Part shown: positions 1,865 to 31,452 of the stretch, one piece after another
How the letters are laid out: every line of letters starts with the position of its first letter
Position numbering within the stretch: position 1 is the first letter of the stretch
Notes under the pieces: model-generated
Database searches by the model: none
What the model was told of the DNA's origin: nothing
What the model saw: only the letters and a program-made list of their open reading frames with translations
NCBI GenBank assembly: GCA_028290225.1
Contig: JAQGKH010000051.1
Location: 1-32,388, forward strand
From: Devosia sp.
GTDB taxonomy: Bacteria; Pseudomonadota; Alphaproteobacteria; Rhizobiales; Devosiaceae
Direction of reading: 5' to 3'
Length of the DNA stretch: 32,388 bases
Position numbers and translations under genes: made by a program

Positions 1865-1893
1865 TTGACTCGACAAGAACAAAACAAGAACAT
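1865..1893 (+). promoter_or_regulatory. Putative sigma70-type promoter overlapped by a LexA box
   Basis: TTGACT (1865-1870), 17-nt spacer, GAACAT (1888-1893, weak -10); the GAAC-N7-GAAC motif lies in the spacer and -10. Confidence 0.5.
1877..1891 (+). promoter_or_regulatory. LexA (SOS) box, alphaproteobacterial type GAAC-N7-GAAC
   Basis: GAAC AAAACAA GAAC, exact match to the known alphaproteobacterial SOS direct-repeat motif (GTTCN7GTTC on the other strand). Confidence 0.8.
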
Positions 1894-1924
1894 AGAAGAG
1901 GGGCACCACAGAGGAGACTTCGAC

Positions 1925-2023
1925 ATGCTCACTTTCATCAAGGACTTGGCTGCGTTCGTCACGCTTGGCGCATTCACGATCGGCTCGCTCACCTGGATGG
2001 ATATCGTCACCCGACTCGTGTGA
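1925..2023 (+). CDS. Small ORF, 32-aa predicted single-pass membrane peptide (MLTFIKDLAAFVTLGAFTIGSLTWMDIVTRLV)
   Basis: ATG with GAGGAG 8 nt upstream, TGA stop, hydrophobic central segment, LexA box ~34 bp upstream. Below the length cutoff of the supplied track. Confidence 0.6.
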   Translation: MLTFIKDLAAFVTLGAFTIGSLTWMDIVTRLV

Positions 2024-2100: not shown

Positions 2101-5100
2101 ATGAGCGGTCTCGGTTTTATTCACCTTCACGTCCATTCTGCCTTCTCGCTCCTGGAAGGGGCGCTGCAGCTCGAAACGATTCTCAAGCTTGCCAAGGAGG
2201 ATCATCAGCCCGCGCTTGGCATTGCCGACACCGGCAATCTCTTCGGCGCGCTGGAATTCTCGGAGAAGGCCAGCAAGAAGGGCATGCAGCCGCTGATCGG
2301 CGTCGAACTGCCCATCGATTTTGCCGCCGCTGAAGAGCGGATCAGCGAGCGTGGTCATATCGCCTGGGCGGGCAAGTCGAGCGTGGTGCTGATGGCAACC
2401 AGCGAGACGGGTTTTGCCAATCTCTCTCGGCTGGTGTCGCGCGCTTATCTGGAAGGAGAGGGCGGCAGCGCCAGTGCGCGGCTGGATTGGCTCAGCCGCG
2501 AGGGGCTTGAGGGTGTTATCTGCCTGTCTGGCGGGCCGGAAGGGGCGATCGACATGCCCTTCGCGCTGGGTCAGGACATCAACGCGTCGGCCCGCCTCGA
2601 TCGGCTTTCCAACCTTTTTGGCGACCGATTTTATATCGAACTGCAGCGCCATGGCCGGCCAGTGGAAGGTTCGGTTGAGCCGCGGCTCATCGATTATGCC
2701 TATCGGCATGGTATTCCGCTGGTGGCAACCAACGAGCCGTTCTTCAAATCCGCCAAGGAATTCGAGGCGCATGACGCGCTGCTGGCCATTGCCGGAAGCA
2801 CCGTGTTGGCGCAGACCGAGCGCCGCAAGCTCAACGACCAGTACTACTTCAAGACCCGGGCGGAGATGGTCGAGCTGTTCGCCGATCTGCCCGAGGCGCT
2901 GGAGTCGACCATCGAGATCGCCAGGCGCGTGGCCTACCGGCCACGCACCCGCGGACCGATCTTGCCGAAATTCGCAGCCGCGCCCGAGCTGACCGACGAT
3001 GAGGCGGTGGCCGCTGAAGCGGCCGCGCTTCGTGCGATGGCGGAGGAGGGGCTGGATCGGCGCATAGCGACGGTCGGTATTGCCCCGGGCAAGACTGAAG
3101 CCGACTACCGCCAGCGGCTTGAATTCGAGCTGGATATCATCCAGCGCATGAAGTTTCCCGGCTACTTCCTCATCGTGGCGGACTTCATCCGCTGGTCCAA
3201 GGCTCAAGACATTCCGGTGGGGCCGGGCCGCGGCTCGGGCGCGGGCTCGCTCGTCGCCTATGCGACCACGATCACCGATCTCGATCCGCTCCGCTACAAT
3301 CTCCTGTTCGAGCGCTTCCTCAATCCCGAGCGCGTGTCGATGCCCGACTTCGACATCGACTTCTGCCAGGACCGGCGCGAGGAGGTGATCCAGTACGTCC
3401 AGCGCAAATACGGCTCCGAGCAGGTGGCGCAGATCATCACCTTCGGAACGCTGCAGGCGCGCGCCGTGCTGCGCGATGTCGGTCGCGTCCTCCAGATGCC
3501 CTATGGGCAGGTTGACCGGATCTGCAAGCTGGTGCCGGCCAATCCGGCCGATCCCTGGTCGATCGAGCGCACCATGAACGAGGTGCCGCAATTCCGGATG
3601 ATGGCCGAGGACGACGAGACCGTGGGCGAGCTCGTTGCCATCGCCAAAAATCTGGAAGGCCTGTTCCGGCACGCGTCGACCCACGCGGCGGGCATCGTCA
3701 TCGGCGATCGCCCGCTGCAGGAACTGGTGCCGCTATACCGCGATCCTCGCTCGGACATGCCGGTCACGCAATACAATCTGAAATGGGTCGAGCCGGCCGG
3801 GCTGGTGAAATTCGACTTCCTCGGCCTCAAGACCCTGACGACGATCCAATACGCCGTGCAGATGGTCAACCAGGATGGCGGGAGCTTCCGCATCGAGGAC
3901 ATCTCGATCGATGATCCCAAGACCTACAAGCTCTACCAGGTGGGCGACACCTTTGGCGTTTTCCAGGTGGAAAGCCCCGGCATGCGGCGGGCCCTCGTGG
4001 ATCTCAAGCCCGACCGCTTCGAGGACGTCATCGCTCTGGTGGCGCTGTATCGCCCGGGGCCGATGGACAATATCCCGCTGTTTTGCGACCGCAAGCATGG
4101 TCGCGAAGAGGTGGAATATCCCCACGACGCGCTGCGCACGGTGCTGGACGAAACCTACGGCATCATCGTTTATCAGGAGCAGGTGATGCAGATCGCCCAG
4201 CTGCTGTCGGGCTATTCGCTGGGTGAAGCGGATATGCTGCGCCGCGCGATGGGCAAGAAGATCAAGGCGGAAATGGACGCGCAGCGCGAGCGCTTCGCGG
4301 AAGGTGCGGAACGGTTCGGGCTGACTACGAAGCTGGCCGACACGATCTTCGATCTATTGGCCAAATTCGCCAATTACGGCTTCAACAAGAGCCATGCCGC
4401 GACCTACGCGCTCGTGTCGTATCAGACGGCATACCTCAAGGCCCACCATCCCCATGAGTTCTTCGCCGCATCCATGACGCTCGACATGGGCAACACGGAC
4501 AAGCTGTCCGATTTCCGGCGCGAGGCGGGCAAGAAAGGCATCGAAATCGTGCCGCCCTGCGTGAACAAGTCCGAGGTGGTGTTTTCGGTCAAGGAGCGCA
4601 AAGTGTACTACGGACTTTGCGCGGTGAAGGGCGTCGGGCGCCAAGTGGCCGAGCATATCGTCGAGGCGCGTGGCGCCACGCCGTTCAAGGATTTGGGCGA
4701 TTTTGCCCGGCGTGTCGATCCCCGCATCCTCAACAAGCGTACCCTTGAAACCCTCGTCAATGCCGGCGCCTTCGATGCGTTGGTTCCCCGGCGCGAACAG
4801 GCCTTTGCTGCCATCGACGCAGTGATGGGCACCGCCCAGGCGCTGACATCGGAGCGCTCCGAGGGGCAGTGGAACATGTTCGATACCGGCGAGGCGGAAG
4901 CCTTCAAGCTTCCTGCCGGCGTGCCGGCCTGGTCCACCACCGAGCGGGCCGATCGCGAACTTTCCGCCATTGGCTTTCACCTTTCGGCGCATCCGCTCGA
5001 TGCTTATGCCGATCTGTTTGAAAAGCTGCGCGTGCAGCGCTGGGGCGATTTCGAGCGTGCCGTCAAGGATGGTGCTTCGGCCGGGCGCCTCGCCGGAACT

Positions 5101-5556
5101 ATCGCCGGGCGCCAGGATCGGCGCACCCGCAAGGGTACGCCGATGATGATCCTGACCCTTTCGGACCAGAGCGGCACCTTTGAGTGCATCGCCTTTTCCG
5201 AACAGATCAACGAGTTCGGCAGTTTGCTGCAGCCGGGCAGGTCGGTGATCTTGCAGGTGGGTGCCGACGAGCGCGCCGATGGCGTGAGCCTGCGGCTGCT
5301 TTCCGCCGAAGCGATCGAAGGCGTCGCCGACAAGGTCGATCGCCGCCTCACCGTATTTGCGGCCGATGCCAAATGCCTGGGTCCGATCAGTGCGCAGCTC
5401 AAGCGAGGGGGGGAGGGGGCCGTGAACTTTGTCGTGATCCGGAATGGCGGAGAACGCGAATACGAGATCGAGCTACCCGGCCAGTATCGCCTTACGGCGG
5501 AAATTGCCGGCGGCATCAAGGCGCTCGATGGCGTCACCGATGTGAGGCTGCACTAG
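2101..5556 (+). CDS. dnaE: DNA polymerase III subunit alpha
   Basis: N-terminal PHP domain (FIHLHVHSAFSLLEGAL), GPGRGSGAGSLVAYA, PDFDIDFCQDRR, C-terminal OB region. Start placed at the 2101 ATG (AGGAG at 2090-2094) rather than TTG 2095. Confidence 0.97.
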   Translation: MSGLGFIHLHVHSAFSLLEGALQLETILKLAKEDHQPALGIADTGNLFGALEFSEKASKKGMQPLIGVELPIDFAAAEERISERGHIAWAGKSSVVLMATSETGFANLSRLVSRAYLEGEGGSASARLDWLSREGLEGVICLSGGPEGAIDMPFALGQDINASARLDRLSNLFGDRFYIELQRHGRPVEGSVEPRLIDYAYRHGIPLVATNEPFFKSAKEFEAHDALLAIAGSTVLAQTERRKLNDQYYFKTRAEMVELFADLPEALESTIEIARRVAYRPRTRGPILPKFAAAPELTDDEAVAAEAAALRAMAEEGLDRRIATVGIAPGKTEADYRQRLEFELDIIQRMKFPGYFLIVADFIRWSKAQDIPVGPGRGSGAGSLVAYATTITDLDPLRYNLLFERFLNPERVSMPDFDIDFCQDRREEVIQYVQRKYGSEQVAQIITFGTLQARAVLRDVGRVLQMPYGQVDRICKLVPANPADPWSIERTMNEVPQFRMMAEDDETVGELVAIAKNLEGLFRHASTHAAGIVIGDRPLQELVPLYRDPRSDMPVTQYNLKWVEPAGLVKFDFLGLKTLTTIQYAVQMVNQDGGSFRIEDISIDDPKTYKLYQVGDTFGVFQVESPGMRRALVDLKPDRFEDVIALVALYRPGPMDNIPLFCDRKHGREEVEYPHDALRTVLDETYGIIVYQEQVMQIAQLLSGYSLGEADMLRRAMGKKIKAEMDAQRERFAEGAERFGLTTKLADTIFDLLAKFANYGFNKSHAATYALVSYQTAYLKAHHPHEFFAASMTLDMGNTDKLSDFRREAGKKGIEIVPPCVNKSEVVFSVKERKVYYGLCAVKGVGRQVAEHIVEARGATPFKDLGDFARRVDPRILNKRTLETLVNAGAFDALVPRREQAFAAIDAVMGTAQALTSERSEGQWNMFDTGEAEAFKLPAGVPAWSTTERADRELSAIGFHLSAHPLDAYADLFEKLRVQRWGDFERAVKDGASAGRLAGTIAGRQDRRTRKGTPMMILTLSDQSGTFECIAFSEQINEFGSLLQPGRSVILQVGADERADGVSLRLLSAEAIEGVADKVDRRLTVFAADAKCLGPISAQLKRGGEGAVNFVVIRNGGEREYEIELPGQYRLTAEIAGGIKALDGVTDVRLH

Positions 5557-30669: not shown

Positions 30670-31383
30670 TCAGTACTTGCGTAGCAGTCCAACGAGCCGG
30701 CCTTGTACCTTGACGCGGTCGGGGGGGAAGATGCGGGTTTCGTAGGCGGGGTTGGCGGCTTCCAGCGCAATGGTGTTGCCCTTGCGGCGAAGGCGCTTGA
30801 GCGTGGCTTCTTCGTCGTCCACCAGCGCCACGATGATTTCGCCGGTGCTGGCCACGTCCTGCTTGCGGATCAACACGGTGTCGCCATCGAAAATGCCGGC
30901 GTCGATCATCGAATCACCACGTACCTCAAGAGCGTAGTGCTCGCCAGCGCCAAGCATTTCGGGCGGCACTGAGATGGTGTGGGAATGGGTCTGGATGGCC
31001 TCGATCGGCGTACCCGCGGCGATGCGGCCCATGACAGGAATTGCAACGGGGCGCACATAATCATCGCTCCAGCCGGAGCGCGGCGGCGGCGCGGCAACGC
31101 GCCCCAGATTGCCTTCGATGACGCTGGGTTCAAAGCGCGCCTTGCGGCCGCCCAGGGCGGGGTTCATCGAATCGGGCAGCTTGAGCACCTCCAGGGCGCG
31201 CGCCCGATTGGGCAGGCGGCGAATAAAGCCCCGCTCTTCCAGGGCAGTGATCAGCCGGTGAATGCCGGACTTGGAGGCCAGATCCAACGCATCCTTCATT
31301 TCGTCGAACGAAGGGGGAATGCCGCTTTCCTTCATCCGCTCATGGATGAACATCAGCAGTTCATGTTGCTTGCGCGTCAGCAT
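30670..31383 (-). CDS. lexA: SOS transcriptional repressor LexA
   Basis: [33 protein letters not shown]; autocleavage/catalytic motifs [35 protein letters not shown]. Confidence 0.97.
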
Positions 31384-31407: not shown

Positions 31408-31422
31408 GAACAAAGACTGAAC
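31408..31422 (+). promoter_or_regulatory. LexA box 1 upstream of lexA (GAAC-N7-GAAC)
   Basis: GAAC AAAGACT GAAC, exact match, 24 bp upstream of the lexA start. Confidence 0.8.
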
Positions 31423-31423
31423 G

Positions 31424-31452
31424 ACCATAGGTGTTCCAGTTATGTTCTGCAA
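31424..31452 (-). promoter_or_regulatory. Putative lexA promoter
   Basis: Minus strand TTGCAG (31452-31447), 17-nt spacer, TATGGT (31429-31424); spacer overlapped by LexA box 2. Confidence 0.5.
31433..31447 (-). promoter_or_regulatory. LexA box 2 upstream of lexA (GTTC-N7-GTTC on plus strand)
   Basis: GTTC CAGTTAT GTTC on plus = GAAC-N7-GAAC on minus, exact match. Confidence 0.85.

Follow-up and report, generated by a model that had tools for sequence, protein, structure and literature searches.

The described system closest to the locus analysed here is that of SidA in Caulobacter. SidA, an inner-membrane protein of 29 aa, interacts with FtsW and thereby blocks division; the activating FtsW substitutions F145L and A246T suppress its effect (PMC4211646). 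Its gene is CCNA_02004 (PMC10769358), and dnaE1 of the same organism is CC1926 (PMC1839093). In S. meliloti, Ribo-seq revealed a small ORF, sORF25, translated in the 5'-UTR of dnaE1; its authors proposed for sORFs located in 5'-UTRs, the one of dnaE1 being named among them, a role of upstream ORF (uORF) (PMC10117765).

The window, i.e. the whole stretch of 32,388 nt from Devosia sp. analysed here, presents in this order lolE/lolD-like genes, an intergenic stretch, an ORF of 32 codons and dnaE1, which starts with an ATG at 2101. This short ORF, and a GAGGAG motif placed 8 nt before its ATG, had been pointed out in an earlier note made from the DNA alone, and both are present as described. It encodes MLTFIKDLAAFVTLGAFTIGSLTWMDIVTRLV, from the ATG at 1925 to the stop codon at 2021–2023, and the alignment of congeners favours this ATG as the start. 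The version given by an ORF finder, a 52-aa frame starting with TTG at 1865, was rejected: it would start in the promoter, and conservation does not extend to its upstream part. The peptide gene is of the kind that gene annotation tends to overlook. A Pfam search of the window peptide found no family, and the small membrane protein YmiC (NCBIfam NF041484) was discarded as a relative, the score being 12.6 bits (E 0.078) versus a cut-off of 42 bits. The best 19-residue Kyte-Doolittle mean of the window peptide is 1.60, versus 2.06 for SidA; with its 32 aa it matches the type of ~30 aa with a single membrane helix, a helix whose prediction is borderline by hydropathy alone.

Table 1. Positions in the window of the peptide gene, its expression signals and the associated genes.
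Feature	Positions	Strand	Evidence
-35 hexamer TCGACA	1870..1875	+	aligned with T[GAC]GAC[AGC] in 35 congeners, 17 nt ahead of the -10
LexA (SOS) box GAAC-N7-GAAC, in the spacer between -35 and -10	1877..1891	+	exact match; position kept in congeners, other genera and families
-10 hexamer TAGAAG (TATAAG in most relatives)	1893..1898	+	congener alignment
Shine-Dalgarno GAGGAG, ATG 8 nt downstream	1911..1916	+	sequence; GGGAG/GGAG at the equivalent position in relatives
Putative SidA-like membrane peptide gene, 32 aa, stop included	1925..2023	+	36/36 congeners, 124/136 family genomes, dN/dS ~0.16, distant SidA homology
dnaE1, replicative DNA polymerase III alpha subunit	2101..5556	+	Pfam PHP, DNA_pol3_alpha, finger, HHH and OB domains
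lexA, presumed repressor of the box	30670..31383	-	Pfam LexA_DNA_bind 4e-17, Peptidase_S24 2.5e-33
Two LexA boxes in the lexA promoter	31408-31422 (+), 31433-31447 (-)	opposite strands	exact pattern match

The promoter is best read from the alignment of 35 congeners, whose consensus is T[GAC]GACA-N17-TATAAG with the LexA box in the spacer. The TTGACT at 1865, initially taken as the -35, is not conserved and its spacing is too long; the conserved hexamer is the TCGACA of Table 1. The exact GAAC-N7-GAAC announced at 1877–1891 is present and reads GAACAAAACAAGAAC. It was said to overlap both the spacer and the -10: the former holds, but the latter does not, the box lying entirely within the spacer. 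A promoter scanner, which requires stricter hexamers, called no promoter at the locus. In most relatives a third GAAC half-site is found just 3' of the -10 (GAAC-N6-GAAC, within TATAAGAAC), and it was lost in the species of the window (region 1893–1905); this third half-site may serve LexA as an accessory site or belong to the transcript start.

Taken by itself the box is unremarkable and near chance. Four exact boxes occur in the window for 0.61 expected, and 93 in the 2.6 Mb genome versus 74 for the reversed control pattern; the extended form GAACN7GAACNTA is unique to this locus. Such numbers, barely over those of the control, would suit a chance ORF lying beside a chance or unrelated LexA-like box, and as the bare pattern is common genome-wide, it is conservation that must carry the argument. 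The peptide is encoded in all 36 congeners sampled. At the 30 congener loci first examined the exact box was found at the same place in 23 cases, most of the remaining loci being one base off. Among 35 members, pS is 0.47 versus 0.11 for pN (dN/dS ~0.16) and the changes gather at third positions, an excess not seen in the other two frames, which points to a strong purifying selection on the amino acids along the full length of the peptide. The earlier note had set beforehand the lack of a conserved reading frame in relatives as the result that would speak against the gene; with 36 congeners out of 36 and such a dN/dS, the frame turns out to be strongly conserved. The residues F4, K6, D7, A9-T13, G15, F17-T18, G20 and L22-D26 are invariant in the genus set; across genera K6, D7 and F17 are still invariant, and W24 near-invariant.

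At the level of the family, the search (E<=1) retrieved the peptide from 124 of the 136 genomes, representing 12 of the 16 genera. We examined 40 loci from other genera: every one has an ORF of 32–35 aa, nearly all display a TgGACa-N17-TATAAG-like promoter with the box or a one-base variant of it in the spacer, and dnaE lies downstream in 39. In the last one dnaE was not found within the stretch fetched; the peptide and its promoter are kept there, and a rearrangement separating them from dnaE1 is possible. Conservation as a unit, through the family and beyond, refutes the fortuitous association of an ORF and a box, to which we attach virtually no probability, and lifts this box above chance.

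Other promoters of the same genome make the motif credible as the LexA box of the organism, since boxes are found at those of lexA, of imuA and, with one substitution, of recA. The lexA gene is located ~29 kb downstream of the peptide gene, in the same window. The recA promoter carries AAACAAAATGAGAAC, one substitution away from the box, and that of the ImuA-like ORF (imuA) carries GAACAAAACCAGAAC. The operator expected for alphaproteobacterial LexA is a direct repeat GAAC-N7-GAAC or GTTC-N7-GTTC at a promoter, and this is what is observed at 1877–1891. Elsewhere in the genome, an exact box GAACAAACAAGGAAC separates an alanine-racemase-like ORF from a RadA/RecA-like ORF (genome contig C169:1951), so that an SOS control of radA is possible, and an AT-rich exact box GAACAAAATTAGAAC lies ~25 nt 5' of a 114-aa ORF, MAPSADIRVLGTRIERATLWQGRSGRVYELQSESFEKFSV (genome contig C123:3533).

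In the other families of the order, which is probably Hyphomicrobiales, searching with the peptide profile yielded weak matches. Nearly every short-frame match examined was preceded just 5' by an exact LexA box and followed 3' by dnaE, neither of which was used in the search; the best matches in other orders likewise have a LexA box before and dnaE after. Class-wide, the 32-aa profile alone proved too weak (10/295) and was abandoned for the regions upstream of dnaE1, which were collected independently of the peptide, the order being sampled by 59 genomes and the wider class by 89. An exact box occurs at 450 nt or less upstream of dnaE1 in 28 of the 59 and 22 of the 89, versus 1/58 in a stretch further upstream and 0/59 within dnaE; several exact boxes of the class sample (GTTC orientation, within coding sequence, no ORF) were judged due to chance. 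Conversely, a test independent of the box relied on a profile whose training set was limited to the first 22 peptides found upstream of dnaE1. On the sense strand this profile matched 26/59 order genomes (three of these matches being from the genus of the window or in the training set) and 10/89 other class genomes. The antisense strand gave no match in either sample, and the box stands directly 5' of nearly all the sense matches. Profile matches and box do not depend on each other, and thus represent two independent marks that co-occur. The arrangement found outside the family, in the order as in the class, is a box and a membrane peptide of 26–47 aa ahead of dnaE1. With the 22-peptide profile no recognisable copy shows up in about half of the order genomes and in the majority of those of the wider class, which may reflect loss, divergence or the detection limit. 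One class genome displays MARWVREMLSLASCGGFVWMAWQAALLAY before dnaE1 (-261..-243 relative to dnaE1), with two tandem LexA boxes upstream; it reaches a sub-threshold 20.5 bits with the SidA model NF033228 and appears to bridge SidA and the wider family.

The same slot was then considered in the Caulobacterales, whose named genomes were found by a PopZ scan before their dnaE1 regions were examined. Most of these slots hold a LexA box and an ORF of 29–30 aa, and in Caulobacter and Phenylobacterium this ORF is SidA itself (NCBIfam NF033228): that of Caulobacter vibrioides matches the NCBIfam entry “cell division inhibitor SidA” with E=2e-20 and 72 bits. The profiles of the two groups are aligned in register by hhalign (P=4.5e-4 and 2.8e-4). 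Eight SidA sequences score 17–24 bits with the profile built without Caulobacterales, and this is equalled by none of 1000 shuffles of each sequence and at most by 1 of 457 membrane-segment decoys. As the slot is the same and the profile match stands above all shuffles, a distant homology to SidA can be claimed. The window peptide taken individually does not match NF033228 (cut-off 35 bits), and in the reverse test the SidA profile gave it 1.5 bits, a value equalled by 35 of the 457 decoys, so that the link with SidA runs through the family and not through the single sequence; besides, a length of 29–32 residues caps every sequence statistic. What we claim is accordingly best worded as a distant homology together with synteny and shared regulation, and not as the membership of the existing SidA model. 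Among the broader characters of a SidA family, we find here a homology that goes beyond composition and hydrophobicity, a location directly upstream of dnaE1 and, judging by the conserved box in the spacer, a probable LexA-controlled promoter. The proposal of an SOS-induced SidA-like membrane peptide thus gains support from the conservation of the frame, from the conserved promoter box and from the presence of SidA in the equivalent slot. The earlier note invoked SidA as an analogy and disclaimed any homology: the likeness is borne out, but the disclaimer was too modest, as the family profile gives a distant homology.

Synteny, distant homology and shared regulation being combined, the gene of the window is best taken as a diverged, syntenic SidA homologue. 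We consider it probable that this ORF is a genuine gene of the SOS response, orthologous to Caulobacter sidA by gene position and distant homology though diverged, and that its induction blocks the divisome. A small, hydrophobic, LexA-controlled peptide might also act in the manner of TisB or DinQ, lowering the membrane potential or slowing growth with no divisome target, and DinQ offers a precedent for such SOS peptides (PMC3567139). However, position, promoter and sequence profile all tie the peptide to SidA, a divisome inhibitor, and the invariant K6, D7 and F17 with the near-invariant W24 suggest a specific partner; we regard this membrane-directed action as improbable.

The distance from the peptide gene to dnaE1 is 77 nt (60–168 nt from the peptide stop in congeners) and no terminator-like site was found in between, for which reasons dnaE1 is the likely second gene of the transcript; the two genes are probably co-transcribed. 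The same closeness and lack of terminator would fit a leader whose translation tunes dnaE1, the peptide having no function of its own, and a uORF role was indeed proposed for the S. meliloti sORF before dnaE1 (PMC10117765). A structure or attenuator in the RNA between the promoter and dnaE was looked for and rejected, the leader folding no better than shuffles (z 0.35). Since, moreover, the distance to dnaE1 varies from ~40 to ~480 nt over all loci and strong purifying selection bears on the amino acids over the full length, a leader-only role is less likely; also against it, the Caulobacter counterpart is a proven trans-acting protein (PMC4211646). On the whole we find it unlikely, and sORF25 may represent the SidA-like peptide family in S. 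meliloti.

For the SidA homologue that we favour, the promoter and box architecture, the purifying selection, the position before dnaE1 and the distant homology are what can be read from the DNA; from these we infer LexA binding, translation at this locus, membrane insertion, division arrest, the FtsW target and co-transcription, as follows. In undamaged cells LexA would sit on the box between the -35 and the -10 and block the promoter. Upon damage, the cleavage of LexA triggered by RecA would free a near-consensus sigma-70 promoter, and the 32-aa peptide would be translated behind a short leader carrying a strong ribosome-binding site. Inserted in the inner membrane as one helix, the peptide, like SidA, would act at the FtsW/FtsI/FtsN stage and stop septal wall synthesis, and this septal block would keep cells from dividing across broken chromosomes. 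The transcript probably continues into dnaE1, which would raise the polymerase supply simultaneously. FtsW is encoded in the genome of the window, with F at the equivalent of F145 and S at that of A246. This serine and the divergence of the peptide from SidA could indicate a shifted target, e.g. FtsN, FtsI or an elongation protein, proposed because many relatives divide asymmetrically or show polar growth. Yet F145 is conserved in FtsW and nothing positive speaks for such a shift, which we deem very unlikely.

The occurrence of such distant relatives of SidA in many alphaproteobacteria suggests that a switch arresting division under damage is much older and more widespread than the annotation of SidA implies. 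One step further, an ancestral alphaproteobacterial SOS operon sidA-dnaE1 can be imagined, in which a single LexA-controlled promoter would drive the replicative polymerase together with a micropeptide that blocks the divisome, and which would predate the split of the order of the window from Caulobacterales; we see the chances of this scenario as evenly balanced. Damage would then halt division and raise the polymerase supply together, and the module would have escaped notice, its peptide being too small to be annotated and too far from SidA for the existing model. Our literature search, whose coverage left aside the original 2011 Genes Dev paper on SidA, turned up neither SidA-like peptides beyond Caulobacter and its close relatives nor any description of sidA-dnaE1 as a joint SOS unit. 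With homology to SidA granted, an SOS division checkpoint could be predicted, and put to the test, in many genera of the class from the few hundred nucleotides that precede dnaE1, and the translated sORF of S. meliloti, proposed as a possible uORF, would gain a new interpretation. The many diverged natural variants, with their invariant K6/D7/F17 and near-invariant W24, could also serve to map the SidA-FtsW interface by covariation.

How does the locus finally compare with known systems? With SidA it shares a short single-helix peptide (29 aa for SidA, 32 aa in the window), a LexA box just 5', a gene directly ahead of dnaE1, N-termini in register and the common pattern [KR][DE]xxA[FL]V[ST][LV]xxF; it differs by a score under the NF033228 cut-off and by a diverging C-terminal half (TWMDIVTRLV in the window). 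The sORF25 of S. meliloti is likewise a small translated ORF located, in a relative, in the 5'-UTR of dnaE1, but it was proposed as a uORF by its authors (PMC10117765) and is likened here by its location and translation. DidA of Caulobacter is also a damage-induced membrane inhibitor of division, with the same late divisome complex as its target; by contrast it has 71 aa, is SOS-independent and binds FtsN (PMC4211646). YneA, SosA, ChiZ and DivS are small SOS-induced membrane division inhibitors too, and YneA binds FtsW (PMC13396833), but they belong to other phyla, are longer and have no sequence relation shown with the present peptide. At last, TisB and DinQ of E. coli resemble it as single-helix membrane peptides under LexA, and differ in being membrane-active, with no divisome target known.
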